Assembly (NCBI GenBank): GCA_949316235.1
Contig: OX438758.1
Location: forward strand, 4,311,731 to 4,375,730
Source of the DNA: Oegoconia quadripuncta
Taxonomy: Eukaryota; Arthropoda; Insecta; Lepidoptera; Autostichidae
Length of the DNA: 64,000 nucleotides
Reading direction: 5' to 3'
Every line of letters starts with the position of its first letter. Position 1 is the first letter of the stretch. Positions 23,558 through 61,979 of the stretch are shown in pieces. Below the pieces are notes generated by a model. The model was not told the origin of the DNA. It saw only the letters and a program-made list of their open reading frames with translations, and did not search any database. The position numbers were made by a program, and so were the translations under genes.

Positions 23558-23751
23558 ATCGCACTAATATTATAAATGTGAAAGTGTGTGTATGTATGTT
23601 TGTTACCTCTTCACGCCTAAATGGCTGGACGAATTTGGATGAAATTTGGTTGGTAGACAGATTGTAACTTGGATTAACATATAAACTAAATTTTGTGCTG
23701 AACCGATTTCGATGAAATTTTCCACGCGAACGAATCGCGGGCAACAGCTAG
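23558..23751 (+). repeat. Short repeat with Helitron-like 3' end
   Basis: It starts TAATATTATAAATGTGAAAG and ends with the hairpin CGCGAACGAATCGCG followed by GGCAACAGCTAGT. A hairpin a few bases before CTAG is the Helitron terminal signature, and this unit resembles non-autonomous Helitrons common in Lepidoptera. It abuts the 3' end of the Harbinger transposase. 23296-23557 is AT-rich without a gene. Confidence 0.6.
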
Positions 23752-24527
23752 TAATACAATATAAAGTACATCTCATCTATTCCTCCACAGTCGTGGCACA
23801 ATAATATTCCTCTGATGTCTGCCACCTTCAAGCTGTTGACTTCCCTCTGAACATCATTTGCTGTTAATTCAGGTACAGGAAGCCGGTGCCTGTTGGCAAT
23901 ATTATGCAACACAGCACATGCATTAACAATCTTGGCGACAACATTGTGGTTGTAATACAGTACTCTATGTGCCAGCAAACACCTCCAACGAGCCTTTAAC
24001 ACCCCTATGCACCTCTCAACAGTATTCCTTGCCCGACAATGAACATTTGTGTAGTGCTCTTCTGCACTTTCAGGTACGGCATTCACGATTGGTGTTAGAA
24101 GCCATGGCCTCAAGGGGTACCCAGAGTCATCTGTAAAGAGTTGAGAACAATAAAGAAATTGAAAGAAAACAATCTATGTATTATTGATTACATTAAAAAA
24201 GAAAAGAGCAGTGCCAGTCTAGTGGTTGTTAACTTCCTTAGGGCATAACTACTTCAAAAGTAAAACAATCTTGTTATATATGAACACACCAAGAAACCAA
24301 ACACTTTCACCATTTTGATGAAGCTGCTGCATATGATTATGTATTTCCGAATGTTTCCATACATACGCATCATGGGTACCACCAAATGTTGCATTGATAT
24401 TTAAAATAGTAGATCGCTGTCACAGATTCAAAAAAGTAAGAATAGCATTGAATATTCAGTTATTGCTTGAAAATGAAAAATAGTTGTACATTGAACTAAA
24501 CACTTACAATTTGAACATTCCTGGAAT
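23748..24527 (-). pseudogene. Harbinger transposase, 3' half, split by the Polinton
   Basis: Three exons run leftwards: 24508-24527 (SRNVQI, ending at donor GTAAGT), about 24290-24413 (NATFGGTHDAYVWKHSEIHN, second catalytic aspartate) and 23748-24130 (DSGYPLRPWLLTPI, third acidic residue, then RARNTVERCIGVLKARWRCL and VLHNI). This is the DDE_Tnp_4 core of a PIF/Harbinger transposase. The first catalytic aspartate lies 15 kb away at 39496-39602, because the Polinton inserted into the exon coding FFNRKHYHSR. The apparent C-terminus ends within the neighbouring Helitron-like repeat. Confidence 0.85.
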
Positions 24528-24533
24528 GATAGT
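24528..24533. repeat. Polinton target-site duplication, left copy
   Basis: GATAGT, identical to 39490-39495. With one copy removed together with 24534-39489, the flanking Harbinger exon reads through in frame (Arg-Lys-His-Tyr-His-Ser-Arg), which proves the insertion. Six-base duplications are the Polinton hallmark. Confidence 0.97.
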
Positions 24534-24620
24534 AGTAGTAGGGATTCAACGGTTCTGGACCACGCCAGTTTTCTGGTCCATCACTCCACCCCCTGCTCGC
24601 AAAAAGGGCTTCACATATGC

Positions 24621-24770
24621 TCGCGGTATGTGTGTAATAAAGTTTATTCACGGTTAAATTCGCGCTTAGATTCGCGCTTAGATTCGCGGTATGTGTGTAA
24701 TAAAGTTTATTCACGGTTAAATTCGCGCTTAGATTCGCGGTATGTGTAATAAACTTTATTCACGTGTGAC
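24621..24770. repeat. Terminal iterons in the left repeat
   Basis: Three units start TCGCGGTATGTGT at 24621, 24684 and 24735, each with TTTATTCACGGTTAAATTCG or a variant. The first carries an extra 12-bp TCGCGCTTAGAT. The right end has a single version (39433-39475). Tandem units near the terminus could bind the replication initiator or terminal protein; this is inference. Confidence 0.8.
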
Positions 24771-24948
24771 ATGTCGTGGTCCTCTCACAGAATTGATCGA
24801 GGGACAGATTGAGAGCGGCACGGTTGCATTGTTATGGAATCATGGTAATAAAATTAATTCACTGTTTGATTGGGAACGCTCGCGAACGCTCTTTGAATCA
24901 TGGGTGGTCCGGCGAGTAGAGTCCGAACAAAAGCGTACTTATTCTTAG
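24769..24948 (+). CDS. Small conserved ORF in the Polinton repeat, hypothetical
   Basis: About 60 codons beginning VTCRGPLTELIEGQIESG and ending VESEQKRTYS. Two further copies are in the right repeat (minus strand, ending 38807 and 39120), because that arm carries a 313-bp duplication. The body is conserved in all three while the upstream start differs. No family is recognised. It may be noncoding repeat sequence that happens to be open. Confidence 0.3.
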   Translation, partial: TCRGPLTELIEGQIESGTVALLWNHGNKINSLFDWERSRTLFESWVVRRVESEQKRTYS

Positions 24949-25224
24949 AAAGTTTCTATAGCAGCGGCATTTCTTTGTGAAATATTTTTTTATCGTAAGT
25001 ATTAATTTTACGTTGCTGGGTAGAGTCCAAACAAAAGCGTGGTAATTGTGTATTATTGTTGTATGTACATTTTACGATTATTGCTGTTTCAAAATGGAGT
25101 ATCCCGTCCTTACCTTAAATTTTTTTCATGGTTATTGCCACAAAGTTTCTATAGAAACGGTATTTCTTTGTTGTGAAATGAGTTTTTGCTACGTTGACTT
25201 GTCAAAACAGGATCTCGTGTGACA

Positions 25225-25293
25225 TATATAAGAGCGCTAAGGCCTACGTCTCTCTACACAGTTCGAGAGATACCAGTTGACAAAGCATCTACT
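25225..25293 (+). promoter_or_regulatory. TATA promoter and leader of the left terminal gene
   Basis: TATATAAG at 25225-25232. An initiator-like CACAGTTCG about 32 nt downstream (25257-25265), then a short leader and ATG at 25294. The same arrangement is mirrored at 38523-38530 in the right repeat. Confidence 0.7.
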
Positions 25294-26111
25294 ATGGTGA
25301 GTTTAATTATTTAATTTTACCTATTTTTCTCAATTGTGTTGTGTTGTGTGTGTTTCAATATGTATACGTAGTGTTTCCAAACTGTTATAAAACAATTCCT
25401 AACATCTGAACCTAAATTATCCGAGTCGTTAATGATTTCTCAGTGAATTCTCGATGTCGCTAAGTTTGTCCCTATTCTAATTTAACTATACTCTCTTGTT
25501 TCAGTGTGTGTTATATTGTTCTAATGTATAATCGTTAATTAATCAATTATAGTGCGCCTCGATGAATAGGGCTCTGTGAGCATCGTGGTTTTTTGGAAAA
25601 ACTAAGTCATACGCTAACCCAATATTTAAACTTGTTTCAGACATCAATTCCCGAGTGTGATTACACATTTAAGAACTATTATTTTCCTGCCTCTCCTGAT
25701 TTAAGTGATGATGAAACTCGCGGTTCTCCCACATTAAAGGCCAAGCAAAATACCGCAAAGAGAAGCATTGATGCTTTTTTTGAGAAGCCGAAGAAAAAGA
25801 AGGTCAGAACGCACTCTTCAAATGTGGCCCAGGCTAACGGAGAGGGAACATCATACATTTCATCAAATAACGACGATGGATCCACTGCGAGCCATCTCAT
25901 TAAAATAGAAGTGTATGAGATGAAAAAATTGAAAGATGTTCTACCCATTGATTACTGGAAATACGCAGATGTACGTGTTAAATATTACATCACATCAGAA
26001 GAGGACAAAAATTATCAAAATACCAGAGATTTAATTTATAATATAACAAAACAGGTGGCAAATAGGAAGGGCTGCACAAAATATTTCATAGAAACCGATA
26101 AGAAACAATAA
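25294..26111 (+). CDS. Terminal-repeat gene, copy 1: 157-residue basic protein, two exons
   Basis: Exon 1 coding part is just the ATG (25294-25296), followed at once by donor GTGAGT. Acceptor TTTCAG ends at 25640 and exon 2 is 25641-26111; the phases agree and give 157 residues. The protein starts TSIPECDYTFKNYYF and has an acidic DLSDDETR segment. It then has KRSIDAFFEKPKKKKVR (residues 41-57), which combines a PCNA-box-like IxxFF with an SV40-type nuclear localisation signal. Its C-terminal half (VYEMKKLKDVLPIDYW...) is of unknown fold. I recognise no family. It is probably a nuclear protein expressed from its own TATA promoter, possibly early. Confidence 0.7.
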
Positions 26112-26143
26112 CACCTTACCTATTGTTACCACTCTTACTACCT

Positions 26144-26370
26144 TATTTCACCTGGAGTATACAGTCCGACCGATAGTAGACTATCTAATTCTAAATCTAA
26201 TGAAGAAGTAATTAGTTTATATTTAGTTGATAATATATAATTACAAAATAAAATAATTTTTTTTTTCACTTATAATTATAGTATTTTATTTTTCTATAGC
26301 TTTATATTAAAAATGGGAGGGGGAAATAAATGAAAGAGTTTGTTATCATCATCATTGTAATATATTATTT
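26144..26370. other. AT-rich spacer inside the left repeat
   Basis: Contains TTTATTTTT/AATAAA-like signals usable by transcripts converging from both sides. No gene is seen. Confidence 0.4.
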
Positions 26371-26811
26371 CTAAAATAAGGTTGTAAACATTCTATTTAT
26401 CAAAATGTCATTATACAGAGGTATATCACAAAAACATCTAATAAAGTCTAACATACTCATACCCATATATTTAAAGTATAGATATACTAAACAGTATTCA
26501 CCACAAACAGAAGTTAAATGACTTTGAAGCTTTTCATTGTTGTATAACCATTTTCGAGTATTCCTGTTTAGAAACATTCTATGGTAACCGGTAGGCTTTC
26601 TCCCAAATGAATCAAAATATTCACCAACACCATTTTCATCAATATTAATAGCCACCCAATGTGATCCAGGTTTTGTATCGGGATCTAAGTTAGAAATAAA
26701 GTAAGTCGGCACTTCTATGTACATCGGAATTCTGTTAGCAGCGAACACATTAAATTCTAGATGTGGATTAATATCTTTCATACATAGCCCTATTTCTCGG
26801 GTATTCATCAT
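26371..26811 (-). CDS. Adenain-like cysteine protease
   Basis: 146 residues. The catalytic order His-Asp/Glu-Cys is visible: GSHWVAINIDENG, then EYFDSFGRKP, then SVCGEYCLVYLY. This matches the C5 (adenovirus-type) protease found in Polintons, which cleaves virion precursor proteins during maturation. The length is short but typical for Polinton versions. The reading frame is intact. It is the last gene of the minus-strand cluster, about 100 nt beyond the major capsid gene. Confidence 0.85.
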   Translation of the reverse strand: MMNTREIGLCMKDINPHLEFNVFAANRIPMYIEVPTYFISNLDPDTKPGSHWVAINIDENGVGEYFDSFGRKPTGYHRMFLNRNTRKWLYNNEKLQSHLTSVCGEYCLVYLYFKYMGMSMLDFIRCFCDIPLYNDILINRMFTTLF

Positions 26812-26915
26812 GAAACAAATCGAACATACTTACATTGAGGTATACTAAAAAGAAAGTGATGATAAATGTTACATGAATTTCAATTTATAATAAAAAGTTT
26901 AATGTTACCCTTTAA

Positions 26916-28229
26916 TTAACTATTATAATCTACACTTACATCTCTATTCTTATTAATTTCAATAACATTGTCAAACTCAGCGTACACAATGCAGTTAAGA
27001 GTTTTGGTGAGTGCTGATTCAAATTGGACTTCTATTCTAACACACCCATGTCTTATTAAATTCCAATGTGAATTCGAGTTTGCAGATAGATCGGGAGTTA
27101 AATCAAATGCCATTAAGCAATATCCATTTGCATAGTCCTCTATCGATATGGAATTTCCTTCATTTAAAAAGTGGATACCAGTCCCAGTAAATAATGTGTG
27201 GTAACTACTCGTAAACACACCACTTTCGTATGATGGCATCAGAGTTTTAGAAGGTATTTGCTGACCATCTACATACAAGCTAAATACATTTATATCATGA
27301 TTATGGAAATTAAATGGATTGGTATTAAAAGTACCGTTAAAAGCTATATTGTCAATAAACCCGATAATACATCTTTTTGGTACCTGCCCAAGAAATACGT
27401 TATCAAGTCTTTTTCCACGTATTCCTGAGGGGATAGTCAAAACTTTTACTTCAGCACGAGTAATTGGATATTTAGCAGTAGTAGTGGATAAAACTTTTTG
27501 ATGGGCAATTAAAACTGATGGATTTATTCTTGCCTTACGTAATATAAGAGTGGCACCATCAATTTGAACTTTGCATTTAGAATCTTGGGATGATGACATT
27601 AGATTAAAGGAGTCCTTATTACGCACTAATTTAACGCGTATTTCTACACCATTTATAAGAAATTTTTCTTGATTAAAGAGATCACCGTGTAAATGTCCAA
27701 TCATTTCAACTACTTTTCCATCTTTTACTCGTTGATACCTTTTGATGAACCCTTCGTTAGTATCATCACATGAATCCATCTTAGATGCTGTGTCTTCGTA
27801 CCACATACCACAAGTCAGATGTGATTGTTTTGCCGCAGGTCCATAATTAAGTAGAGTTTCAACATAAGACCGATATGCATATGTGTTGTTAGGAGGTGAT
27901 ACAAGTTTTTGATTTAAGTATACATCTAGTTGGTTAAAAAGTGAATGCAACCAATTATTTACAGGTGCCACTTTAACACTAGTAGAAGCAGCGGTAGAAT
28001 CTATGTTGACTATTTTAGCTTTAACATGAAGCAGAGTGTGTGACAAATCAATGTAGTCATCACCAGTTCCTGGCATAACAAACTCAATCGGCCCTTCATC
28101 ACTTAGAGATGATATTGGTGTACAGTGAATCCATTGTCCACTTTCAATACTTGTCTGTGTTGATGGAAGTGCAAAAAGATCCAACTCTGATTTAACACAC
28201 TCACAAGAATGATTATGTAAGAACGACAT
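26916..28229 (-). CDS. Major capsid protein (double jelly-roll type)
   Basis: 437 residues without interruption. The start (MSFLHNHSCECVKSELDLFA), the GDDYIDLSHTLLHVKAKIV strand-rich segment and the C-terminal AEFDNVIEINKNRDV match the Polinton capsid family. Insect genome annotations often list it as an F54H12.2-like uncharacterised protein. Its role would be the hexagonal shell of a virion. The start codon lies 2 nt after the stop of the upstream small virion-type gene, suggesting coordinated expression. Confidence 0.85.
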   Translation of the reverse strand: MSFLHNHSCECVKSELDLFALPSTQTSIESGQWIHCTPISSLSDEGPIEFVMPGTGDDYIDLSHTLLHVKAKIVNIDSTAASTSVKVAPVNNWLHSLFNQLDVYLNQKLVSPPNNTYAYRSYVETLLNYGPAAKQSHLTCGMWYEDTASKMDSCDDTNEGFIKRYQRVKDGKVVEMIGHLHGDLFNQEKFLINGVEIRVKLVRNKDSFNLMSSSQDSKCKVQIDGATLILRKARINPSVLIAHQKVLSTTTAKYPITRAEVKVLTIPSGIRGKRLDNVFLGQVPKRCIIGFIDNIAFNGTFNTNPFNFHNHDINVFSLYVDGQQIPSKTLMPSYESGVFTSSYHTLFTGTGIHFLNEGNSISIEDYANGYCLMAFDLTPDLSANSNSHWNLIRHGCVRIEVQFESALTKTLNCIVYAEFDNVIEINKNRDVSVDYNS

Positions 28230-28231
28230 AG

Positions 28232-28678
28232 TTAATCCGAAAATATATCTTTTATGTAATTTTTCTTCTTCTGAACCCCTCTTCGCTTAGATGCTTTCAA
28301 TGAAATGATTGGTTTCTTTACACGTCTTTTGATTTTATACCCGGAACCAGACATAAGTGAATCGATTTTATCATCCGCTTTTCGTTTTAAATTAGCAGCT
28401 GCATTTTTGAGACGAGACTTAATAGATTCCTCCATTGGTTGTGTCCTAATCATATCTGATAATAACCCTACACCTGCGCTTAATGCCTCTTTTCCAACGG
28501 CTTTGGCACCACTCGCTAAGAGTGGAAATACAGATCTAAACAGTCCTCCTAAAAAACTTCCAATGCCATGACCACGCTGATAAGGTATACCTCGATATAT
28601 AATACCCACACCTGAACCAGCTTGGTGAGAATAATAATGATGGTAAGGACAAAGTATGTTATCACGTTTATGATTCAT
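28232..28678 (-). CDS. Small glycine-rich, basic virion-type protein
   Basis: 148 residues. A glycine/hydrophobic stretch (GIGSFLGGLFRSVFPLLASG, residues about 40-59) is followed by an amphipathic segment and a lysine/arginine-rich tail (KIKRRVKKPI, KASKRRGVQKKKNY). The pattern is like the pX/pVI-type core or membrane-active minor virion proteins of Polintons and adenoviruses. Its start overlaps the upstream stop as ATGA (28675-28678). Confidence 0.7.
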   Translation of the reverse strand: MNHKRDNILCPYHHYYSHQAGSGVGIIYRGIPYQRGHGIGSFLGGLFRSVFPLLASGAKAVGKEALSAGVGLLSDMIRTQPMEESIKSRLKNAAANLKRKADDKIDSLMSGSGYKIKRRVKKPIISLKASKRRGVQKKKNYIKDIFSD

Positions 28679-29532
28679 TTTATTCGCATAAAATGAAGTT
28701 TAATACATGAAGTTCCAAATTGGAATGGTACTCTATTACCAATGCTGGTTCTTATATCTATTTCTATGGTATCAAATTCTCTACGCATGACTGGAAGATA
28801 ATGAATAGGAGATAATATATGCATTTTGTATGCACCATAAATGTATTTTGATGGATCTAGTGGAATGATTCTAAATAACGAGCTCATCACATCCCCCACA
28901 ATTTGTGGATGGATAATATCAGAATAAATAAACAGTTGTGAAGGCAATCCCAATTGTAAATTCGTTGGGTATATTGCATGTGGCTTTGTTATTAAATTTG
29001 TATAAGGCTCAAAGCCAAGTTGAAGACTTAGCGTAGGGGATAAGACCAACGATGATACATTGTTAGTTAATTTCGTAACAGTAATAAGTTTCGAGTTGTC
29101 ATCAATTTCAAATTTCACTTGGTTACGTAAGAGGTTATTTTCATTGAATACTTTTAGAAAATTATTGATGTGGTCATAAGTAAAAGATGGGATTTGAGAT
29201 TTGTATTCCACTGGTATTAACGATGGATCATCATAATAGTAGTTTTCATTCAGATCAATACGACTGTGAGACTTATCTTCTACAGATACTGCATCATTAC
29301 TCTTGTAATCTCCTTCTACTATGGCTTTTTGCTTGATGAAGAGAATATTCTCATTTTCTTGAACATTAAATATCGAGCAGGGATAATGAAATTCAGCTAA
29401 CCCGACAACCCATTCACCCTCCAATTGAACAGTTTTAGGTAGCTTTGTTATGAAGTTAGCTGTTGTGTTTTGAGGGAAATATATAGTTGAACTGTTGCTT
29501 GGTAAAGTAAGATAAAAGCTATCTTCTATCAT
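28675..29532 (-). CDS. Penton-like minor capsid protein
   Basis: About 285 residues from the methionine at 29532 (MIEDSFYLTLPSNSS). An in-frame start 10 codons earlier (29562) is possible, but 29532 makes an ATGA overlap with the integrase stop and is preferred. Motifs include YFPQNTTANFITKLPK and EGEWVVGLAEFHYP, a pattern I associate with the single jelly-roll vertex protein of Polintons. The frame is intact. The assignment rests on family resemblance and gene position next to the capsid gene. Confidence 0.65.
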   Translation of the reverse strand: MIEDSFYLTLPSNSSTIYFPQNTTANFITKLPKTVQLEGEWVVGLAEFHYPCSIFNVQENENILFIKQKAIVEGDYKSNDAVSVEDKSHSRIDLNENYYYDDPSLIPVEYKSQIPSFTYDHINNFLKVFNENNLLRNQVKFEIDDNSKLITVTKLTNNVSSLVLSPTLSLQLGFEPYTNLITKPHAIYPTNLQLGLPSQLFIYSDIIHPQIVGDVMSSLFRIIPLDPSKYIYGAYKMHILSPIHYLPVMRREFDTIEIDIRTSIGNRVPFQFGTSCIKLHFMRIK

Positions 29533-30618
29533 ATTAACTCCAAGTTTGATGCTGATATCCAACTATTGAATTTATTAGGATATCCTTTCCATTTGACAAA
29601 CACTTCCTTTCTGTTACCAAAACGACGAGTGCATATTATTTTATCGATTTTATATTTAATGGTGGGGTCATAGATTACTTTTTGTAGTTCCCTACCATAA
29701 AACGTACCCACTATTGGTTCGTTTTTAAGATCTTTTAAATTGTAAACAACCCAAGGAAATCTTTTAACAATAGATGATATTATAAATATTTCATCCGACC
29801 CATTTGTTTCATACCCTTTTTGAAAAATGTGTTTATATTTCGTTATTCTAACATGATCACCTACTTTAAATGATGAACGATCACTTATATGCTCATTATT
29901 GTCCTTATCATATAAATTAGACCATACTGCCATTATATTATTCGAATTCACATCACTAGGACACATTTTAATACTGGAATGTACACTGTGATTGTAAGAA
30001 TGTAATAATTCTTGTAAAATATCAATATATCTATATGTATTATTATGAGTGAAATATCGCCACATTTTCATTTTAAGTGTTCTCTGAAATCTTTCTACAA
30101 TACTAGCTTTGATATCAGGATTGTTCGTTGTATAGTAATTAATATTTTTCCTTTTGAGGAATTGATTTACATCTTTTGAAACAAATTCGGTACCTTTATA
30201 TCGGATTGTATATGTCTAGGAGTAGCCCCTGCTTCAGTAAATATGCTTTCGAAACATGTCTTAACAGTTTCAGAATTTTTTTTCTTCATAGGCCTTGCAA
30301 AAGCGTACTTACTAAATACATCAATGACACAGAGAATATAATTAAAGCCATCATTATATTTATTGTATGTTCGCATATCACTTAAATCCGCTTGCCATAG
30401 CTCATTTAAATTAGATAAAATATATTTGTTCCTAGGAAATTAACAGGTTTGTGCAAAGTATAAGTTTCTTGAGATTGTAACCACTTCTTTACATTCTGTC
30501 TGTTCATTTTCCCTTGCATAGCTTTTACTAATTTGTTAACACTGCTATATCCAGCCGGGTGAGAGACATCATAATATATGTTATTTATATCATCTAGTTG
30601 GGGTTCCATCTCTCCCAA
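29529..30618 (-). pseudogene. Retroviral-type integrase with chromodomain, two frameshifts
   Basis: Three frames cover the gene. 30618-30406 holds the N-terminal region (VNKLVKAMQGKMNRQNVKKW). The next frame (to about 30200) has the first catalytic Asp (ELWQADLSDMR) and FSKYAFARPMKKKN, with the second Asp at IQSD. The last (about 30200-29529) has the catalytic Glu (ASIVERFQRTLK) and a C-terminal chromodomain (EVFVKWKGYPNKFNSWI). Single-base shifts lie near 30440 and near 30200. The integrase would insert the element and make the 6-bp duplication. As read here it cannot be made as one protein, so either this copy needs help in trans or the assembly has errors. Confidence 0.85.
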
Positions 30619-31364
30619 TCTAATTTTCTTTTATGTAGCAAGTCACCACGTCTTCGCTTTGGTGTTTTATGTTTGTCTACTAAATCGTCTTTGTTAAAAT
30701 CAGCCGAATCAAGGTTGTTTATGTATTCAAGCGTTTCTGGGTTACTTATACAAGTTAATGGTATTTTTATGTCCCTTAGAGCTGAAGCGAACTTTTCCCA
30801 ACCTGATGGTTTTGGGCGTCGTAACGGTCGTAGGACATCATTAATTAAATCTACAATATTACTGCGAGGAACAATTTCATTATTGATTATGACTTTACCT
30901 TCACCATCCCAAGTAATGGCATTTCCTTCTGACAATATACCTTCTAATAATAGTTCACCCTTTTTTTTATATGTTTTTGGTATAAATTTAAACAAATAAC
31001 TTGGGGTATAACGTGATACTATATGATTTTCCTTTACTACGTCTTCTTCTGTTGTTGATAATTTTGGAACTACTGCATTATCATTATTTTCTTCCTTTTT
31101 AATACTATTAAAAACTGCATTGATAGGGGCATCTGTAACTATTGGTAATGTAATGGGATGACGTTCTGTACCAGCAAAATGTAAATATCTTTGTAAGATT
31201 TGTAAATATTGCATCCATTTCTCACGGTCTTCAATTTTACTATTTAAGATTTTATTCATCTCTTCATCGAGACGGGACAATGGTTTTTCAGGAACGTTAT
31301 CACTGTGTCTAATCCTATCAATGACATGAGGTTCCACAAGTATCATTTTCTTTGTGTTCTCCAT
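30594..31364 (-). CDS. Polinton hypothetical protein
   Basis: 256 residues, uninterrupted. Visible are HVIDRIRHSDNVPEKPLSRL near the start, a central region ending VPRSNIVDLINDVLRPLRRP, and a basic C-terminus (KTPKRRRGDLLHKRKLDWE). It overlaps the integrase start by about 25 nt and begins 1-2 nt after the preceding gene. Proteins of this kind occur between the capsid and ATPase genes in other Polintons, but I know of no assigned function. Confidence 0.55.
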   Translation of the reverse strand: MENTKKMILVEPHVIDRIRHSDNVPEKPLSRLDEEMNKILNSKIEDREKWMQYLQILQRYLHFAGTERHPITLPIVTDAPINAVFNSIKKEENNDNAVVPKLSTTEEDVVKENHIVSRYTPSYLFKFIPKTYKKKGELLLEGILSEGNAITWDGEGKVIINNEIVPRSNIVDLINDVLRPLRRPKPSGWEKFASALRDIKIPLTCISNPETLEYINNLDSADFNKDDLVDKHKTPKRRRGDLLHKRKLDWERWNPN

Positions 31365-31365
31365 T

Positions 31366-31695
31366 TTACTTATTCAAAAACGAACTTAATAATCCACTAA
31401 GAACAGAACCTAAAATTATGGGTAAGAATGCTCCACCTTTCTGTATAATAATTCGTTTTCGGGAGTTACTTTTACCCTTAGATACTAATTTTCTCAACAA
31501 AGTTTTGTATTTACTCAACTTGGATTTATCTCTATCCTTCAGAGGAATTTTACCATTCAAAATATTATAAATACATTCACATAAACAATTTATTTCTTCA
31601 TTGCGACATACTTTCAACAAGGCTGTACAATACTTAGGTTTAAGCGTATGCAAAGCTTTTAGTAATTCAAGATGCGTCGTCACTCTACCAACCAT
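31366..31695 (-). CDS. Small Polinton protein, paralogue A
   Basis: 109 residues. ELLKALHTLKPKYCTALL, INCLCECIYNILNGKIPL, a basic middle and a hydrophobic C-terminus (GGAFLPIILGSVLSGLLSSF) that could be membrane-active. It resembles a small protein recurrently found in Polintons. The neighbouring gene at 31750-31974 has the same N-terminal plan, so the two arose by duplication. Confidence 0.55.
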   Translation of the reverse strand: MVGRVTTHLELLKALHTLKPKYCTALLKVCRNEEINCLCECIYNILNGKIPLKDRDKSKLSKYKTLLRKLVSKGKSNSRKRIIIQKGGAFLPIILGSVLSGLLSSFLNK

Positions 31696-31749
31696 TGTAA
31701 CCGACTAATAATAATAATATTTTGAGGCTGTTATTATTATAAGGAAACA

Positions 31750-31974
31750 CTATGCAATATTTCTTGAAAAAAAGCAATGTAACTTCAAGAAACTACATTT
31801 TGATTGCCGCACCCCTTTTATAGGGATTTCAATGAAAGTATCTACAATACTTTCACATATACGATTTATTTTATCTTCACTACATTTTTTCAATAAAGCT
31901 TTGCGATATTTCGGTGTGAGTACTTGTAAAGCTAGTGATAATTCCTGATCTTGTGGTACTGCTTCTTCAGGCAT
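31750..31974 (-). CDS. Small Polinton protein, paralogue B, shortened
   Basis: 74 residues: ELSLALQVLTPKYRKALLKK and INRICESIVDTFIEIPIKG align with paralogue A, but the hydrophobic C-terminal segment is absent and the last 25 residues look unrelated. This suggests truncation. Its ATG overlaps the stop codon of the ATPase gene (TAATG, 31972-31976). Confidence 0.5.
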   Translation of the reverse strand: MPEEAVPQDQELSLALQVLTPKYRKALLKKCSEDKINRICESIVDTFIEIPIKGVRQSKCSFLKLHCFFSRNIA

Positions 31975-32636
31975 TATCGACCACTAACTGATATTTGATT
32001 ACGGTGTGTATCATATTTATAACCCTTTTTCGGCAAATAAACTACACAGTTTTCATCCGAGGGAAAGAGTTTACTCTTAAAACGACACATATCATTTGTA
32101 TTTTGTTTTAAATCAATCATTAGATAACCATGTGCTTCTGCTGTAGCGTCCTTATAAGCTTCTTCGACGAATTTGGAATTATCTGGCATTACTTGACGTG
32201 CTAAATGACGTATTTGTGCTCTATCTCTAGGATTTTTGAAGAAAATTATGTAACTCGAATTTAAGGAAATATCGCGTTGCCCTCTACCTTGGTGAAATAA
32301 ATTTTGTGTTATATAAAACACACTAAGATTTCTATGATGACTACCTTTAGTGAAAATATCTACAATGCGGGCATCGGATTCTCGCATAAGATCATCTATT
32401 ATCAGTAATTGTGGTAGCTTACCATCAAACATGCTTAACTCAGGGCTACCCTGTTTATAATCAACATTGTTCAAATTATATAAAGGTTGCATTTCATCGT
32501 AACACCATAATATCCGTTCAAAGTCACTGTTACAAATATCTTTTGCATATTTTAAGAAATTGGTAACAAAGTTAGATTTACCACAACCACTTGGGCCTGC
32601 TACAATAGCTGTGAAAGGATGGATGAAATGAAACAT
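31974..32636 (-). CDS. FtsK/HerA-type DNA-packaging ATPase
   Basis: 220 residues, intact. Walker A is AIVAGPSGCGKSNFV (about residues 10-24), Walker B is LPQLLIIDDLM, and an FtsK-like NLSVFYITQNLFHQG segment follows. This is the A32-type genome-packaging ATPase of Polintons and related viruses, which drives DNA into the capsid. It is immediately followed by paralogue B. Confidence 0.85.
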   Translation of the reverse strand: MFHFIHPFTAIVAGPSGCGKSNFVTNFLKYAKDICNSDFERILWCYDEMQPLYNLNNVDYKQGSPELSMFDGKLPQLLIIDDLMRESDARIVDIFTKGSHHRNLSVFYITQNLFHQGRGQRDISLNSSYIIFFKNPRDRAQIRHLARQVMPDNSKFVEEAYKDATAEAHGYLMIDLKQNTNDMCRFKSKLFPSDENCVVYLPKKGYKYDTHRNQISVSGR

Positions 32637-32896
32637 TTTTTTATTTTGTTACAATTTAACGTGTAACCTATAAAGCTCTGTGTTTAGGAATGGGGTTAAA
32701 CAAAATAGGAAGTCTCTTATAAAGTCACTCAGTAATTTTATTATATAAATTACATTTAGAAATCACACAATTTAAAATATACTTACAATAATGAAAATTA
32801 ATTAAAAATTTCAAATACAGTTTTACAATTCAAATAATTAAAATAATCTTACAATAATGATATTATACTAATAGTGGTACTTAAAATGTATATACA
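32637..32896. other. AT-rich spacer between ATPase and polymerase genes
   Basis: No gene. It would hold the promoter of the ATPase-to-protease cluster and the 3' end of the polymerase transcript. Confidence 0.4.
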
Positions 32897-35800
32897 TTAT
32901 TTAATACTGTAATGACCCCAAGCAAAAGTATCTGTAGAGATAGGTATAAAATATCTCTTAGTGTCATTATAAGATAAACATATCTTGTTTATTTTCTGAG
33001 TGAAAATAGTATGCTTTAAACTTCTTATTCTATACATTTCCGAAATTTGGATTTCGTTATGAAATAAACATTTTTTATAATTTTCCATTAACATTTTTTT
33101 CGTAACATTTTTGTTTACGCCTTTAGCTTTAGCGGTTACCTTATTTTCAACATCTATACAATACATTTTAGATCGCAAACCAACAAACTCTTTAAATATC
33201 TTTCCATTGTTTTCATCCTTAAAATATCCCAACTTTTTTTTATTTAACAGTGGAATACCAAAGACATTGTTAGATGGATAATCTGAAGTATCAAAATAAT
33301 TGTATATATCAAGTGCTATATCTGTGTAAAAGTTATCAGTAAAGATATGATAAATTAAACTATCCGTGTCTGTATAGAGTAACTTTACTTTATTGTTATA
33401 TTTTGGTTTAATATAATTATAATGAAAATTGTACATAAGAGTTTTTGAAATGTCCAATATGCAAAAACCTAAATAAATAGGTTTATTGTAGAATAATTTC
33501 GTTTTGTGTAATTGAACAGCAACTAGTGACTCAGAAAATATTGAAAGGCTATGGAATTCCGGTCGGGCTATCAGGCTTTGCACACCTTGAGTTTTACCAC
33601 GATTTTCCCAATGTGTTAATAATTTTACATTAACTCGTTTTTCTATGTTTTCCATAGTCTTACCAAACACAGAATTATTCATAAGTTTGTAAAAATCTTT
33701 GTCAAAATCAGTTTTTGCTAAAGTTCTCAATTCTGTGTTTAAATCTATGTACTTTTTTAGCCAGGGACTTTGTTTAAACTGTAAAATTCTGTGGACTTTG
33801 AGCAATTTCATACCTAATTGCAAACATTGTATAAGATTTCTATAATGTATAACATAATTCTTTTTGTTATATAAATTAGGAACTAATTTCTTATCTTTAC
33901 TATTACCTATAACAATATTTTCAGGACATAAGGGGAAATCTGAATGTAAATCATGAATGTTTTCAGGATAATGGAGATCGACCTCCAATATATATCCAAC
34001 ATCAGATGTAAGTGATACATGAAAATCAGTATTTGCACTAACCCATTTGAAATCTCCTACAGGTAAGTATTGTGACATTGCCCATCCATAAAGGTTATTT
34101 GCATCAAAATACATCAAATAAGATTTTGGTAAATCTGAATTGAAATCTTTGAGATATTCATTATTAGCCTTTCCATATCTATTACAGCATTGTGATACAC
34201 CCCCTCTTATACCAGATTTCACAAACGCTAACTTATCGAAATCAGTCAACAATTCTAATTCAATTTTTGTGTATTTCAACATCGCATCCCAACTTAACCC
34301 CGGAGCTGTGTAATATTGAGTTGGATCTAAATCATAAGTTTCAATACACACTTCACGGAAATTTTCAAAGATATCGGTTAATAGCATAACATCGGTTTTC
34401 AAGTATAGATTTGAATAATCTAACATATTTTGACATTTAAAATGTTTCCAAACATCTAAAGCATGTTTATAATCATTATCAGATACACATGTATCAGTCA
34501 AAGAACTGTAAAATTGATCCTGCGTGGGAAGTGATGTGACCTGCAACGACTCATATGAGTTAATAAATTCATATGGAAATACACCTTTTTTTATTAATCT
34601 CTGAAAATCAGTTTTCTCAGGAAATTGTTTTCTTAACTCTTTCAATTGTTTTTCTTTAAGATTTTTTGCCAAACTATCTAAACTACTGGACATAAACTTG
34701 AAAGAATCCAAAAACCTTAAAAATATTGAATGACCATTTATAAATATTTTTTTAGAAAATGAAATGTACTTTTCTTTACTTTGTGGGATAATTTCTATTT
34801 CACCATCCATAAAGTTAAGTGCATGAACAATAAAATGAGCATCATAATTACTCAAGTTATGAAACAAAATTGGAATGAAGAAAGGTACACGATATTTAGA
34901 ACTACATATTTTATGAGCTACCCCCCTAAACTTTCCAGTATTCCAATCAAAATCTAGATCGGTATCATTATTATCTAATCGAGTCTCGCATATATAACAT
35001 AACTCTGATTGACTAATTTTCAATTGATCAGCATCAGTTAATGGTTGGGGTCGTTTTTGAAAGCAATTCCTTTTTTGTATCTCGGATAAGTCTTTATATA
35101 AACTTTCCATAAATACTTTTGCACAGTCTGGTCCAGTATATGTTCGATACTTGGAAAGGGAATCATCATAGGAACATTTTATATAGTAACCATAGCTATA
35201 CACTTCATGCTCATGTATTGATCGGGTGTATGATTTTAATGGATTAGGATCACATGATTTAATCGGTTTCAAAATGGCTTCCAAATCTGCATATATAACA
35301 AAGGGTAATTTTAACTTTCGTTGGAATTTATCGAAGGTAATTTTATCATTACTTATTTCTTGACCAAACCAATTCTTAGTCTTTTTATTCATTCCAGGTA
35401 ATTCTGTAACTATTTGTGCACAATCTTTTGTTTGATGGTTTGTTAACCTTTCTCTGGTAGTAAAATATAATAAACAACCATCACAAATATGTATCGCTTT
35501 CTCCTGGTTAGTGACTTGTTTATTTACCAAACGTGACATGTTTTTAATGTAACAATAATGGTTATCGGAACCATTTACTAAGTATAACAAGTTTACATGG
35601 GTTTCTTTACGAGACTTGGTAAAGTACAAAGGACCCACAATAGTATTTTTCTTAGTATCTTTGTTGTAATCCAAACCAAAAACATTAATGCTTATATTGT
35701 TTTGTTTTTCAACTCTACTTATATCTTTTAACTTCACTGGGAATTGAATACCATTAAAGTTCAATTTATTCTCATGTCTAATATAAGATGATACCCGATC

Positions 35801-37449
35801 TAAGTGAGTATTAACTGGATACATTGCGGAGAGTAAAGCCCACTTTAAACATTGTTGGTCTCTATTTTTTACATTTATTACAGCTTTCTTGTGTTTAATA
35901 TCTATCGGTAAATCGATATATGTCGAGCCACGTAAGGGGTTAAATTGATTAATATTCATTTCTAAAAACTTTATTTCCCGCAAAGACCAACCACTATCTT
36001 TTTTCTCAAAGTCAGTCATCCTTGTTTTAATATTTTCCATCAATGTATTGAAGTAAATATCTAAATTTTCACCTAAGCAAAGTGACCAGTTATTTGTTTG
36101 AAAGTCAAATGAATTTTTAATGTCTTTAGTTTCCTGTACAAAGTCCGCATGAACTATAAAGTTGACTTTAATAGTAGTCAGCTCCCTCAAACACTCTTCT
36201 ACAAGAAATAAAATAGTTTCCCTCACTGATTTTATGAACAATTCCGGGGTTTGTAAAACATTATTATCATTGGAAAGAGGTGAAGTTATTCTGTAGGTTA
36301 ATATTCTAGAACCAAAAGCTGTAGAAATAATACTAACATTATCGAGATTATGTTCTTGAACGAAAACCTTTTCTTTGTGTGATTTACTCCGCAAGTGGTT
36401 AGTGAAATATCTTCGACTCACCGTGTGATTACATATTCCACATGTTATGGGGTCCACCACCACATTTGAAGGTCCAGCACTGCTAGTCGATCTGCTCGTA
36501 GATGTCGACGCGTTGTTGTTATTCACGACATTGATATACTCAGTGCAACTAGATGACTCATTTGCTTCTTGTGTGCGACGCGATTTCGATGCAACTTGTA
36601 CACTCGATTGCACCTTTCTTTTCCCCCCGGTTTGATTACTTGCACTGTAATAGAACACACAATATTAGTATTAGAGTTATAATAATGAAATAACACAATC
36701 AAAATTGCTTTCATAATACCCACATTAAGGATTACACAGCTTACAATATGCCTGCATTTGTAATACACCATCAATTTCATCAATGTTCTCAGTAGTCGCA
36801 TCACTTCTTATTTTATGCCCACTACAAGGAGTAAAATATGGTATAATATCTGGGTCCTCTATCATGAAATTAGGAAGTTTATGACTAATGTACCACAGCC
36901 TAATGAAATTATGAAATTTGTTTAGAAGAAACGATTTGTCTAATGACATAATTTCCTGAGTCGATAAAGACAACATTGTGTATTAGTTTTGAGACGTTAC
37001 TTGTAACAAAATGAGGTAAAGACACTACTAACAATCGTTTATGTAGTAACGTCGTTCACCCCACTACTCATACCATCAATGTACTTGGGTTAACTTTGAA
37101 ATATTTGTAAACTGTGTCCTATTACTCATAAAATATCATTCAAATTTGTATAACACTAATAGATAATGAGAACTATCTTATTACATAAGAACGAGAGTTC
37201 AAGTTTGCATAAATTCAATAGATAATGAGAGAGCTTCATCACAAATCACATAATATAATTAAACTGTGTGTTCCTGGACGAATTAAAGATAGTACAAGTT
37301 ACTTACGGTTCAGGTGGTACTTGGTTTACAGCATCACTGAGCTCACAGAGATCGTAGAGTTGTTGATCTATATTTCTTTGTTCTGCCTCGATACATAGTT
37401 GATATAATTGCTCATCAAATATTGGGTTGTTGAGATCGAAATGTGCCAT
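32897..37449 (-). CDS. Protein-primed DNA polymerase B, two exons
   Basis: Exon 1 is 37307-37449 (MAHFDLNNPIFDEQLYQLC...), ending at donor CC|GTAAGT. The 662-nt intron ends TATTACAG at 36645. Exon 2 is 32897-36644. Phases agree and give 1,296 residues. A C2H2 finger (CGICNHTVSRRYFTNHLRSK) lies at about 116-137 and a second zinc motif (CDGCLLYFTTRERLTNH) at about 440-455. Exonuclease motifs: YADLEA, HNLSNYDAHF, YLKTDVMLL. Polymerase motifs: DANNLYGWAM, KLMNNSVFGK, YTDTDSLIY. All catalytic residues are present, so the enzyme looks functional. It would replicate the linear element from a protein primer at the terminal repeats. Confidence 0.9.
36725..36976 (-). CDS. Small ORF within the polymerase intron, doubtful
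   Basis: 83 codons starting MLSLSTQEIMSLDKSFLL and ending AYCKLCNP. It lies inside the intron inferred for the polymerase gene and contains a GTAAGC that could be a donor. No family is recognised. It may be an alternative exon, a separate small zinc-binding protein (CxxC), or chance. Confidence 0.25.
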   Translation of the reverse strand: MLSLSTQEIMSLDKSFLLNKFHNFIRLWYISHKLPNFMIEDPDIIPYFTPCSGHKIRSDATTENIDEIDGVLQMQAYCKLCNP

Positions 37450-37571
37450 CGTGTTAACACTGAATAAGGGACTACCACTAATAAAGGTCTTTGGTTTTTA
37501 GACTACCACTAACAAACTTCAGTCAATGGCTGATTAGGAATGACTCTCAGTTTACTTGAGTTGAAACCCTC

Positions 37572-37579
37572 ATTATATA
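37572..37579 (-). promoter_or_regulatory. TATA box upstream of the polymerase gene
   Basis: On the minus strand TATATAAT is followed by GAGGGTTTCAACTC. The ATG at 37449 is about 120 nt further. The box sits just inside the inner edge of the right terminal repeat, so it is unique to the polymerase side. Confidence 0.55.
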
Positions 37580-37643
37580 GTCGATTTTAAGTAGCATGGC
37601 GGGGGGTCATTAGGTAGTAAGAGTGGTAACAATAGGTAAGGTG

Positions 37644-38461
37644 TTATTGTTTCTTATCGGTTTCTATGAAATATTTTGTGCAGCCCTTCCTAGTTGCCAC
37701 CTGTTTTGTTATATTATAAATTAAATCTCTGGTATTTTGATAATTTTTGTCCTCTTCTGATGTGATGTAATATTTAACACGTACATCTGCGTATTTCCAG
37801 TAATCAATGGGTAGAACATCTTTCAATTTTTTCATCTCATACACTTCTATTTTAATGAGATGGCTCGCAGTGGATCCATCGTCGTTATTTGATGAAATGT
37901 ATGATGTTCCCTCTCCGTTAGCCTGGGCCACATTTGAAGAGTGCGTTCTGACCTTCTTTTTCTTCGGCTTCTCAAAAAAAGCATCAATGCTTCTCTTTGC
38001 GGTATTTTGCTTGGCCTTTAATGTGGGAGAACCGCGAGTTTCATCATCACTTAAATCAGGAGAGGCAGGAAAATAATAGTTCTTAAATGTGTAATCACAC
38101 TCGGGAATTGATGTCTGAAACAAGTTTAAATATTGGGTTAGCGTATGACTTAGTTTTTCCAAAAAACCACGATGCTCACAGAGCCCTATTCATCGAGGCG
38201 CACTATAATTGATTAATTAACGATTATACATTAGAACAATATAACACACACTGAAACAAGAGAGTATAGTTAAATTAGAATAGGGACAAACTTAGCGACA
38301 TCGAGAATTCACTGAGAAATCATTAACGACTCGGATAATTTAGGTTCAGATGTTAGGAATTGTTTTATAACAGTTTGGAAACACTACGTATACATATTGA
38401 AACACACACAACACAACACAATTGAGAAAAATAGGTAAAATTAAATAATTAAACTCACCAT
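37644..38461 (-). CDS. Terminal-repeat gene, copy 2
   Basis: Mirror image of the left copy: ATG at 38461-38459, donor immediately after it, exon 2 at 37644-38114, 157 residues. The only protein difference seen is Thr instead of Asn in KQVA(N/T)RKGC. Promoter TATATAAG is at 38530-38523. Both copies are transcribed toward the element's interior. Confidence 0.7.
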
Positions 38462-38522
38462 AGTAGATGCTTTGTCAACTGGTATCTCTCGAACTGTGTA
38501 GAGAGACGTAGGCCTTAGCGCT

Positions 38523-38530
38523 CTTATATA
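38523..38530 (-). promoter_or_regulatory. TATA box of the right terminal gene
   Basis: Minus-strand TATATAAG, the mirrored counterpart of 25225-25232, with identical downstream initiator and leader. Confidence 0.7.
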
Positions 38531-38697
38531 TGTCACACGAGATCCTGTTTTGACAAGTCAACGTAGCAAAAACTCATTTCACAACAAAGAAATACCGTTT
38601 CTATAGAAACTTTGTGGCAATAACCATGAAAAAAATTTAAGGTAAGGACGGGATACTCCATTTTGAAACAGCAATAATCGTAAAATGTACATACAAC

Positions 38698-39323
38698 AAT
38701 AATACACAATTACCACGCTTTTGTTTGGACTCTACCCAGCAACGTAAAATTAATACTTACGATAAAAAAATATTTCACAAAGAAATGCCGCTGCTATAGA
38801 AACTTTCTAAGAATAAGTACGCTTTTGTTCGGACTCTACTCGCCGGACCACCCATGATTCAAAGAGCGTTCGCGAGCGTTCCCAATCAAACAGTGAATTA
38901 ATTTTATTACCATGATTCCATAACAATGCAACCGTGCCGCTCTCAATCTGTCCCTCGATCAATTCTGTGAGAGGACCACGACATGTCACATATGGAACCG
39001 CGAATTTATCAATAATACACAATTACCACGCTTTTGTTTGGACTCTACCCAGCAACGTAAAATTAATACTTACGATAAAAAAATATTTCACAAAGAAATG
39101 CCGCTGCTATAGAAACTTTCTAAGAATAAGTACGCTTTTGTTCGGACTCTACTCGCCGGACCACCCATGATTCAAAGAGCGTTCGCGAGCGTTCCCAATC
39201 AAACAGTGAATTAATTTTATTACCATGATTCCATAACAATGCAACCGTGCCGCTCTCAATCTGTCCCTCGATCAATTCTGTGAGAGGACCACGACATGTC
39301 ACATATGGAACCGCGAATTTATT
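38698..39323. repeat. 313-bp tandem duplication in the right terminal repeat
   Basis: Units begin AATAATACACAATTACCACG at 38698 and 39011 and appear essentially identical. Each holds one copy of the small ORF and the CTTTTGTTTGGACTCTACCC segment. The left repeat has only one copy, so this arose after, or escaped, repeat homogenisation. Confidence 0.9.
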
Positions 39324-39489
39324 ACGCAACGAAGCGCGATGATTATTCCGCGAGCACCGTGATATCTCACATATGGCCGAACGATATCTGTCATTGAACC
39401 GAACCAAGCCACCCACACATCCGCCGATAATAACCGCGAATCTAAGCGTGAATTTAACCGTGAATAAATTGAATTGAATCCCTACTACT

Positions 39490-39495
39490 GATAGT
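39490..39495. repeat. Polinton target-site duplication, right copy
   Basis: GATAGT, matching 24528-24533. Confidence 0.97.
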
Positions 39496-39602
39496 GCTTC
39501 CGATTAAAAAATCTTTCTTCATGATCTGTTGGCCTCACCAATGCGACATGTGTGCCATCAATGCAGCCCAAGACACCAGGAAAGCCAAATTTATTTGAAA
39601 AT
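39496..39602 (-). pseudogene. Harbinger transposase, 5' exon piece with first catalytic Asp
   Basis: After acceptor TTTGCAG (39603-39609 on the minus strand) the frame reads FSNKFGFPGVLGCIDGTHVA and continues to FFNRKHY, where the Polinton interrupts it. GCIDGTHV is the first DDE motif of DDE_Tnp_4 transposases. It is the missing partner of 23748-24527. Upstream N-terminal exons were not identified with confidence; a short coding-like patch (KWPGHSYMDDLRLYREKG) lies near 39735-39805. Confidence 0.85.
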
Positions 39603-39809
39603 CTGCAAAGTAATAAAGTTCTTAGTGCATTAACAAATTCAATTAATTTAAAAATCATAACTTCTATAGCGACAAATTAGGTAATGTTAGGTATAAGTAA
39701 TAAAACCTAATAATACCACAGACCACACACATATGGGCCTTTCTCTGTAAAGTCTCAAATCGTCCATATAACTATGTCCCGGCCATTTTTTAAATCTGTT
39801 TATTCAAGT

Positions 39810-40584: not shown

Positions 40585-40870
40585 TAAAAGGAGATGAATC
40601 CAGAAGACGTAATTAACTGTTTATAATAAAATTTATTATCCACCGGAATGATAGGTAACAAACAATACAAGACGATATCGCTCGGGACGCCACGTGTGCG
40701 ATCGGTAGCGCTGGTCTGTACTTCACGGCGGCGAAGCTCCAACTACTCGCCCCACGGCGCGGGCGATGGCGGGCGGTGCATGTGGCAGGGGCGGTGAGGC
40801 CGCGAGGGGCCGCACTATGCGGCGCACAACTCGTGCAGGCACATAGCGCCATCTCTTGGTAGCTCTTGCA
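40585..40870 (-). repeat. 3' LTR of the gypsy element
   Basis: Read on the minus strand it starts TGCAAGAGCTACCAAGAG and ends CATCTCCTTTTA. It contains a GC-rich block that is open in one frame but is not a gene. Confidence 0.85.
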
Positions 40871-40949
40871 GTCGACCGTCCTGATGATGCTGTGAGCCCC
40901 GCACAGCTCTTAAGCCGCTTAGGCTAATAACAATGGTTAACACACTCCT

Positions 40950-41230
40950 TAAAGTGCACCAGATGGTCCGCTTATGAAAGCCTGCATCGAATTGCCATTA
41001 AGAGGTTTCTGAAAACCTTCTTATGCACCGGATGGTCCGCTCATGAAAGCCTGCATCAAATTGTCTTCAACAGGCTTCTCAAAGACTTCTTAAAGTGCAC
41101 CAGATGGTCCGCTCATAAAAGCCTACATCGAATTGTCTTCAACAGGCTTCTCAAAGCCTTCTTAAAGTGCACCAGATGGTCCGCTCATAAAAGCCTGCAT
41201 CGAATTGTCATCAAACAGGCTTCTGAAAGC
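40950..41230. repeat. Tandem repeat, about 70 bp by four, in the 3' region
   Basis: Units centred on CACCAGATGGTCCGCTCATG and GCCTGCATCGAATTG recur at about 40961, 41030, 41102 and 41174, spaced 69-72 bp. It lies between the end of pol and the 3' LTR. Confidence 0.9.
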
Positions 41231-41793
41231 CTACGTTGACGAAAGTCGACGTTATGAACCGCCTTCGAAGGCTTCCATACAAAATGTTTAAGAAGATATT
41301 ATCTTCTGTCAAAGGCCTTGTGCCAACCGTGCACACATCAAAAGCAAAATACAAGGCAATATAGAACAACACCACATCATGTGGTATAAGCCAATCCGAA
41401 TAGGATATCAAAAACATCTCAATGACACATCACCTCTTAAAGTGATGACAAGTCAATTTGACTAATTATGAGAAATCAAATAGCGAGCACATATTAAAAT
41501 CAATGTATTATTTTAATGCAATACTTATAAGTATTCCAATGTATGATAATATAAAAGAAAACATAAAAGCTTGGTTCTCAATCCAAACAGTATCCATACA
41601 TTCTGTCAGTTCTTAATCTAACTAAACTATGCTTATTTTTGATAAGTATTTCTATGTATGGCAACCATAATGGTATAATTTTCAATAGACAATATAATTA
41701 GTCATACAAATATTATAAACAAAACTTCAATTTCTAATTTTAAACAATGATTAAACCTTCTAAGATGCCACAATCTTAAAGGAAATTCAATAA

Positions 41794-44205: not shown

Positions 44206-44210
44206 CTCAA

Positions 44211-46631: not shown

Positions 46632-46822
46632 ACTTTAACACGACGAACACACACAACACACTTTTTAGTCACAAAACAAAAACAAGACGAGCACGCTAGG
46701 TACCTACTACGACCTACGAGTAGTTATATTTTAAACAGCAATCACTTTTATTGGTAAAACTTGGCTTTACGGAATTATTTAAAACTTGTATTTAGTGAGC
46801 TAAGTCCATCGCACTTCTGAGT

Positions 46823-47107
46823 TAAAAGGAGATGAATCCAGAAGACGTAATTAACTGTTTATAATAAAATTTATTACCACCGGAATGATAGGTAACAAAC
46901 AATACAAGACGATATCGCTCGGGACGCCACGTGTGCGATCGGTAGCGCTGGTCTGTACTTCACGGCGGCGAAGCTCCAACTACTCGCCCCACGGCGCGGG
47001 CGATGGCGGGCGGTGCATGTGGCAGGGGCGGTGAGGCCGCGAGGGGCCGCACTATGCGGCGCACAACTCGTGCAGGCACATAGCGCCATCTCTTGGTAGC
47101 TCTTGCA
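46823..47107 (-). repeat. 5' LTR of the gypsy element
   Basis: Near-identical to the 3' LTR. The internal sequence starting ACTCAGAAGTGCGATGG next to its inner edge is where a primer-binding site should lie; I cannot name the tRNA. Confidence 0.85.
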
Positions 47108-61897: not shown

Positions 61898-61979
61898 TGT
61901 AAAAATCGCCGAGGACTCAAAACTATGACCAACAAAAAGTGTAGTTTAAGGGGCTGCCAAAAGAAAAAATACCTATTCA

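Follow-up and report, generated by a model that had tools for sequence, protein, structure and literature searches.

What is the stretch of nearly 15 kb that divides a Harbinger transposase exon in Oegoconia quadripuncta (Lepidoptera), and how did it come to be there? The DNA analyzed, termed the window, is a stretch of 64,000 nucleotides of contig OX438758.1 (assembly GCA_949316235.1, positions 4,311,731 to 4,375,730). It is C17:4311731–4375730 of the genome that was searched (622.6 Mb, 45 contigs). The inserted sequence is 14,956 bp long, is found at window positions 24534–39489, and displays the termini, target-site duplication (TSD) and gene content of a Polinton/Maverick element. It appears to belong to a Polinton family of lepidopteran type, many copies of which arose very recently by the family's own replication and integration, a reading to which a probability of about 0.87 is assigned.

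The element begins and ends with an exact inverted 16-mer, AGTAGTAGGGATTCAA, and comparison of both flanks shows the hexamer GATAGT at positions 24528–24533 and again at 39490–39495. Terminal inverted repeats (TIRs), a 6-bp TSD and AGTAGT ends are all present, as expected of a Polinton, and (AGT)2 ends fit this class. A scan of the window for inverted 16-mers that lie 5–25 kb apart and have a flanking 6-bp direct repeat gave 34 pairs. By inspection, only the hexamer of the GATAGT pair is not a palindrome; the other 33 pass automatically because they have palindromic hexamers inside the arms. The left arm is at 24534–26146 (plus strand, 1,613 bp) and the right arm at 37609–39489 (minus strand, 1,881 bp). 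Thus the inverted repeats of 1.6–1.9 kb reported in the first-pass annotation are correct as arm lengths, but the arms are colinear over 1,382 bp only (24765–26146 and 37609–38990). Mismatches within this stretch occur at 26062, internally, and at 26144, near the inner edge. The outer ends differ: the outer 231 bp of the left arm carry 56-bp direct repeats spaced 63 bp, and the outer part of the right arm carries a 313-bp tandem duplication (38697–39009 and 39010–39322).

The sequences on either side are the two parts of one Harbinger DDE exon on the minus strand. The upstream part, at 39490–39676, has an open frame, and the downstream part is at 24498–24533, with an approximate inner end; both are recognized by the match of the joined peptide. 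To the right of the element the minus-strand reading is GVLGCIDGTHVALVRPTDHEERFFNRKHY; once the element and a single GATAGT are taken out, it continues in frame as HSRNVQIVSV. The joined peptide is similar to positions 1–36 of PF13359 DDE_Tnp_4 (E 1.9e-4), although its 21.5 bits fall short of the 24.8 cut-off, and the right piece alone gives no family match. The last exon (23748–24173, minus strand) aligns with DDE_Tnp_4 positions 81–158 (60.4 bits, E 2.1e-16) and identifies the gene as a transposase. A middle exon with an open frame, recognized by eye, is at approximately 24282–24404 on the same strand.

A genome search with the joined 225-nt exon gives 18 matches in all. Five are uninterrupted exons at other places (1–225 at 99%, 224 bases, i.e. 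one short), one is at 87% over positions 66–214, the window site accounts for two, one for each half, and the remaining ten are weaker. The five are paralogues, distinct from an empty allele of the window locus. The first-pass annotation had proposed a structurally complete Polinton inside a Harbinger exon on the basis of GATAGT on both sides, perfect 16-bp termini, and an exon frame that closes when the element and one duplication are taken out. These observations and the proposal are upheld, and the empty exon that it suggested be sought in the genome is present in the five copies.

Two of the uninterrupted exons are 5.2 kb apart on the same strand (C10:9120262 and C10:9125510). A Myb/SANT-like gene, a candidate for the second gene of the Harbinger and recognized by eye only, is at about 21.6–23.3 kb. 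No convincing inverted pair that could represent the Harbinger TIRs was found between 20.9–21.8 and 39.6–41.0 kb; the ends may lie elsewhere.

The element has many sister copies. Its terminal 16-mer has 100 exact matches in the genome (53 on the plus strand, 47 on the minus strand; the reversed control has 0), and these sort into 46 pairs that face each other and 8 ends with no partner. An earlier view of the element as an isolated, ordinary copy was dropped after these searches, and the statement that a full-length, sharply bounded copy is uncommon does not hold for this genome. Lengths between paired ends range from 9,774 to 18,339 bp; 19 of the 46 are at 15,065–15,073 bp, and 12 of these are exactly 15,070 bp. 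All 44 pairs tested (the 46 less those of C18 and C20) display an exact 6-bp TSD, with 41 distinct hexamers among them. The set consists of the window, 18 copies read by comparison of arm and partner, 25 read directly (one of which repeats another element) and one from the arm set described below. When partner ends were fetched, two of 20 stretches (L034 and L043) had no end. The L034 partner was later found further off; that of L043 was not found by the 16-mer search, yet a facing TIR gene is present at C8:11214856.

Among the 44 TSDs, position 3 is C in 22 (binomial 4e-6 against window composition), position 4 is A in 19 and G in 17 (0.001 for G), position 5 is T in 22 (0.008) and position 2 is A in 19 (0.07). 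These values are uncorrected and the positions were chosen after inspection, and they give a weak target preference of the integrase, NNC(A/G)TN. One short copy (C5:26326066–26337490, 11,425 bp) has matching TSDs, CGTATA, and both of its arms continue with the junction bases of the protease side, one of them briefly. This copy looks rearranged before insertion.

The copies are nearly identical. The arm set comprises 30 loci taken from 40 scored of 379 candidates, and 28 of the 29 other arms can be compared with the left arm of the window (L028, anchored on a rearranged stretch, was left out). At 26062 all 28 have C and the window A. For 27 of them this is the only difference; the L002 arm also differs at the arm-junction base 26144. 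A 1,500-bp core piece was compared in 28 copies including the window, a set that excludes L002, an arm of the polymerase side, and L022, which is rearranged. It displays seven variable sites, three of them singletons, and 17 copies are identical. A butterfly mutation rate of 2.9e-9 per site per generation was taken for dating. At this rate one private change in 28 arms corresponds to about 9,000 generations, with an upper bound of about 50,000, and zero changes in 17 cores give about the same upper bound. The estimate is rough, as it assumes a star tree, the arm list favors identical copies and the core piece is partly coding. The near-identity of arms and core pieces is best read as a recent burst of the family.

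A search with a 90-aa piece of the integrase core, in which 150 of 497 candidates were scored, separates two families. Family A (98%–100% identity) consists of 48 other copies and the window copy, whose frame is 90 aa. Forty-six of the 48 display a 368-aa frame with no stop reported; the other two are defective, i.e. a 368-aa stretch with a TAA and a frame of 191 aa. Family B (93%) comprises at least 101 matches, 98 of which have a 363-aa frame; the other three have shorter frames (289, 294 and 320 aa). The 101 share a single score, a hint, short of proof, of a separate burst of family B. An example is at C1:1089953–1103031.

Polintons are held to be transposons as well as viruses. Copies of this kind could stem from repeated infection of the germ line by virions, in an exogenous adintovirus-like phase, and not from copying within the cell lineage. 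The window copy has an open gene for a major capsid protein (MCP) at 26916–28229 (minus strand). The MCP model (pLDDT 76.6) matches the capsids of PBCV-1 (3.5e-15), Sputnik (4.7e-15) and mavirus (7e-14) by Foldseek; at the sequence level there is no meaningful PDB match. The predicted fold is a double jelly-roll, which fits Polintons. The capsid family is widespread, with 2,393 relatives. Among the best 120 of these, the closest named ones are lepidopteran (Plutella 77%, Parnassius 76%), and beetle sequences are lower (Aquatica 66%). Besides the capsid, the coexistence of two families with near-identical copies speaks for infection, and the abundance of copies of a single length would suit a lineage that arrived only lately. 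However, intracellular spread is expected to give the same pattern, and no relative was found in scans of viral_contigs, though this collection may lack insect viruses. Germ-line infection is considered a real possibility, yet a doubtful one.

In its integrase the window copy is unusual among its sisters. Its integrase gene (29529–30630, minus strand) is spread over three frames, 29529–30215, 30167–30439 and 30406–30630, with the rve core and the chromodomain in separate frames. The gene thus has at least two breaks. It is nevertheless recognizable as an rve integrase (PF00665, 35.0 bits, cut-off 32.6) with a chromodomain (Chromo, E 1.4e-8). The breaks might be sequencing or assembly errors in a copy as intact as its sisters, and the undisturbed 368-aa frame in 46 of the 48 other family A copies, like the nearly unmutated state of the compared pieces of the window copy, would agree with that. 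An error would have to account for at least two separate frame breaks, however, and two other family A copies are defective too; this explanation is rated as somewhat unlikely. If the breaks are real, the window copy could move again only with an integrase supplied in trans by a sister copy, since its own gene is frame-broken.

The proposed course of events is as follows. The protein-primed DNA polymerase (pPolB) of the element would copy the element DNA, and one terminal arm would often serve as template for the other. The rve-chromodomain integrase would then insert the element by a 6-bp staggered cut, as the 44 exact duplications out of 44 suggest, and the window copy would have landed in this way in the Harbinger exon.

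The step in which one arm templates the other is supported by arm-matched variants. Both arms were fetched far enough in 33 of the 46 pairs and one (C5d) was unreadable, which leaves 32 for comparison. The outermost segment varies between elements, and it is identical in both arms of 21. Nine of these 21 carry variants other than the commonest one. The nine matches of rare-variant arms compare with 0.63 expected and a maximum of five in 10,000 shuffles of partners. In addition, the element C14a (C14:19039365–19053695) carries the exact 231-bp left end of the window on its polymerase-side arm, as if ends can switch sides. Copying from arm to arm in linear protein-primed replication is known for adenovirus-like genomes, and the concordant variants and the C14a end would fit such a process. 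Alternatively, the arms may be alike simply from youth after insertion and descent from masters already paired, with no frequent copying between arms. The core outside the arms is also almost invariant, as youth would predict, and the shuffle does not remove shared descent. But in nine elements the two arms share one and the same outer segment other than the common one, and several of these segments were seen in a single element only. A new variant does not reach the second arm through youth alone, and copying must have taken place at least in the ancestor of each variant; youth and descent by themselves are judged a decidedly unlikely explanation.

That an assembly artefact, or free element DNA built into the assembly, explains the near-identical copies, alike over long stretches, is highly improbable, as all 44 tested copies have their own exact 6-bp duplication (41 distinct hexamers) and their own genome position, and the uninterrupted target is present in paralogous Harbingers.

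The core genes are all on the minus strand. The main exon of pPolB is at 32897–36644, and 7,906 of 7,978 scored candidates match it at E ≤ 0.001. Some of these relatives carry PF03175 or bear the name DNA-directed DNA polymerase; the window protein itself has no PF03175 match. A predicted exon 1 is at 37307–37449, with TATATAA at 37579. The intron between them (36645–37306, 662 bp) has the donor CC|GTAAGT and the acceptor TTACAG|T at 36645/36644, and the phases match. Comparison of the 47-aa peptide of exon 1 with the N-termini of 35 relatives of at least 1,200 aa gives a best score of 61, which none of 300 shuffles reaches, and a mean score over the 35 that four of 300 reach. A frame of 83 codons (36725–36976) is present on the coding strand inside the intron. 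As a candidate for the pPolB N-terminus it was rejected, as 20 of 100 shuffles reach its score.

The remaining core genes are as follows. A probable Ulp1/adenain-type cysteine protease at 26371–26811 is weakly similar to cysteine protease S273R (E 0.0033), in a stretch that covers the H and C regions. A small glycine-rich/basic protein at 28232–28678, placed by position only and with no usable family match, presumably resembles pVI or pX. The 295-codon frame at 28675–29562, one gene from the MCP, is a probable minor capsid (penton) protein; there is no usable family match and position is the basis. A probable packaging ATPase at 31974–32636 has a Walker A sequence, GPSGCGKS, seen by eye, and weak P-loop matches, those in Pfam below cut-off. 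Between ATPase and integrase there is an open reading frame of 256 aa (30594–31364) with no family match, and one of 109 aa (31366–31695). The segment 31750–31983 looks, by eye, like a partial second copy of the 109-aa protein. The first-pass statement that nearly all open reading frames are open holds in general; the exceptions are the integrase, split over three frames, and possibly the fragment 31750–31983.

Each arm contains a gene as well, termed here the TIR gene. The left copy (25294–26111, plus strand) is predicted to encode 157 aa, from an exon 1 that consists of the ATG (25294–25296), an intron of 344 bp (25297–25640) and an exon 2 at 25641–26111. The right copy (37644–38461, minus strand) has the corresponding exons at 38461–38459 and 38114–37644. 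The signals are a TATA box, TATATAAG, at 25225, ATG|GTGAGT at 25294 and TTTCAG|ACA at 25641. By eye, and uncounted, several relatives have open reading frames that begin in the apparent intron end, with FQ or LQ before the homologous part. Thus the TIR gene, like pPolB, looks spliced.

A genome search with the TIR protein, in which 150 of 406 candidates were scored, gives 104 family A matches at 96%–100%, one of them with a TAA, and 46 family B matches at 78%, with 188-aa frames and no stops. A hand count places the latter in 22 facing pairs and two singles. In 17 pairs the two starts are separated by 12,605–12,615 bp, and a family B integrase match lies within 20 of the 22 pairs. The facing pairs indicate that the family B genes probably sit inside terminal repeats too. 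In both families, then, the copies listed generally have a gene in each arm. Between the families the TIR gene is more diverged (78%) than the integrase core (93%).

Pfam domains are absent from all 27 relatives of the TIR protein. Only three of these bear a species name, and all three are lepidopteran (Maniola/Aphantopus, Pararge and Phthorimaea). F47 and F48 are invariant in all 28 sequences. The motif [ILMV][DE]xFF is found in 27 of the 28, against 34 of 5,600 shuffles, three of 120 MCPs and two of 120 pPolBs, and [ILMV]xxFF is found in all 28; the sequences share ancestry and the counts are not independent. The mean fraction of the top residue is 0.79 at residues 44–53, 0.41 at 1–40 and 0.64 at 82–145. 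The canonical PIP box is given as Q/N-x-x-hydrophobic-x-x-aromatic-aromatic in the text of PMC3973308. In the window protein a basic residue is present at +4 after the motif and the TD of PIP degrons is absent. The AlphaFold2 model has a pLDDT of 56 and a best Foldseek E-value of 0.48. A profile match to the designed protein 7ong (SAKe6BE-L1, E 5.5e-6) was dropped, as no single stretch passed and a repeat or composition artefact is likely.

The product of the TIR gene, with its basic stretches and PCNA-box-like motif, might tentatively be seen as bringing the host replication clamp and the element DNA together. A wider proposal is that the terminal repeats of some insect Polintons hold a regulatory gene that is spliced, that the duplicate is kept by arm-to-arm copying in the course of protein-primed replication, that the product hijacks the host sliding clamp, and that this layout underlies an ongoing burst of two families with at least 150 copies in a single genome. 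Taken together, this is speculative and rather unlikely to hold in full.

Several points weigh against the account given here. The arms are discordant in 11 of the 32 elements, the window among these, so that arm copying is not universal or has been partly undone later. The shuffling of partners leaves in place the shared descent of the elements, which also raises concordance. The best-scoring list from which the arm set came favors identical copies, and the state of the open frames across copies was judged from the integrase piece and the TIR gene alone. The PCNA-box reading is a lead from a short motif; the Q/N of the PIP box is found in 10 of the 28 TIR proteins by the count made here and is absent from that of the window. 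Finally, the Polinton gene set named in the first-pass annotation stands for the polymerase family, the capsid fold and the integrase core; for the ATPase, protease and penton, support from sequence is weak.

Other mobile elements surround the locus. A Gypsy-type element (40585–47107) has gag and pol frames at 41794–46634 between two 286-bp repeats (40585–40870 and 46823–47107) that are 99.65% alike. Pfam matches show a DDE_1 with a Psq domain and a sub-cut-off PHD match (11143–13287), a piggyBac-type DDE_Tnp_1_7 (20059–20568), a Mutator (48820–50445), a Tc1-type (50612–51649), a P element (56810–58138) and a mariner-type sequence (60824–61945). A 365-bp tandem duplication at 8368–9089 is 96.7% alike. 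Comparison with PHROGs gave nothing usable, Rfam gave no match on 24–40 kb of the window, and no relatives were found in a plasmid collection.

Dozens of near-identical family A copies and at least 100 of family B, with exact TSDs, an empty-site control and arm-paired variants, form a natural system for the questions of infection versus intracellular spread, of how arms stay alike and of where the integrase aims. If the wider proposal above is true, the arm-matched end variants would be a genomic footprint of the replication mechanism. The literature, searched mostly at the level of listings, gave no recognized account of a gene inside both Polinton arms or of such a burst in an insect, and no priority is claimed.

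Lepidopteran Mavericks with chromodomain integrases are already known, i.e. Sf Maverick 1 and 2 of Spodoptera frugiperda, which as described in PMC5803895 share pPolB and chromodomain integrase, and probably ATPase and protease, with the window element and are transcribed in cells. Sf Maverick 1 also has all genes on one strand. The Sf elements are described as having a PLA2-type CAP instead of a PY capsid, whereas the window element has a double jelly-roll MCP. Their gene list is given as ATP, ORF2, INT, CAP, PRO, ORF6, ORF7 and ORF8 (158 aa), whereas the protease is last in the window element. The main text of PMC5803895 does not contain the term 'inverted repeat'.

The intact Mavericks of vertebrates, as presented in PMC8097293, share the 6-bp TSD, the (AGT)2//(ACT)2 ends and apparently the same core genes. 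They are 12.7–24.6 kb long with TIRs of 46–1,447 bp, whereas the arms of the window element reach 1.6–1.9 kb. According to the same account they display no introns, unlike the apparently spliced TIR gene and pPolB of the window, and mostly have two oppositely oriented gene modules, unlike the single strand of core genes found here. It also states that 96% of vertebrate Maverick loci are eroded and that Polinton particles have not been observed. In its double jelly-roll MCP, with a probable penton one gene away, the window element resembles the Polintons with jelly-roll capsid proteins described in PMC4028283. The Eupolintoviridae (formerly Adintoviridae, class Polintoviricetes), as outlined in PMC12451622, share pPolB, integrase and a double jelly-roll capsid with the window element, a likeness by gene set.

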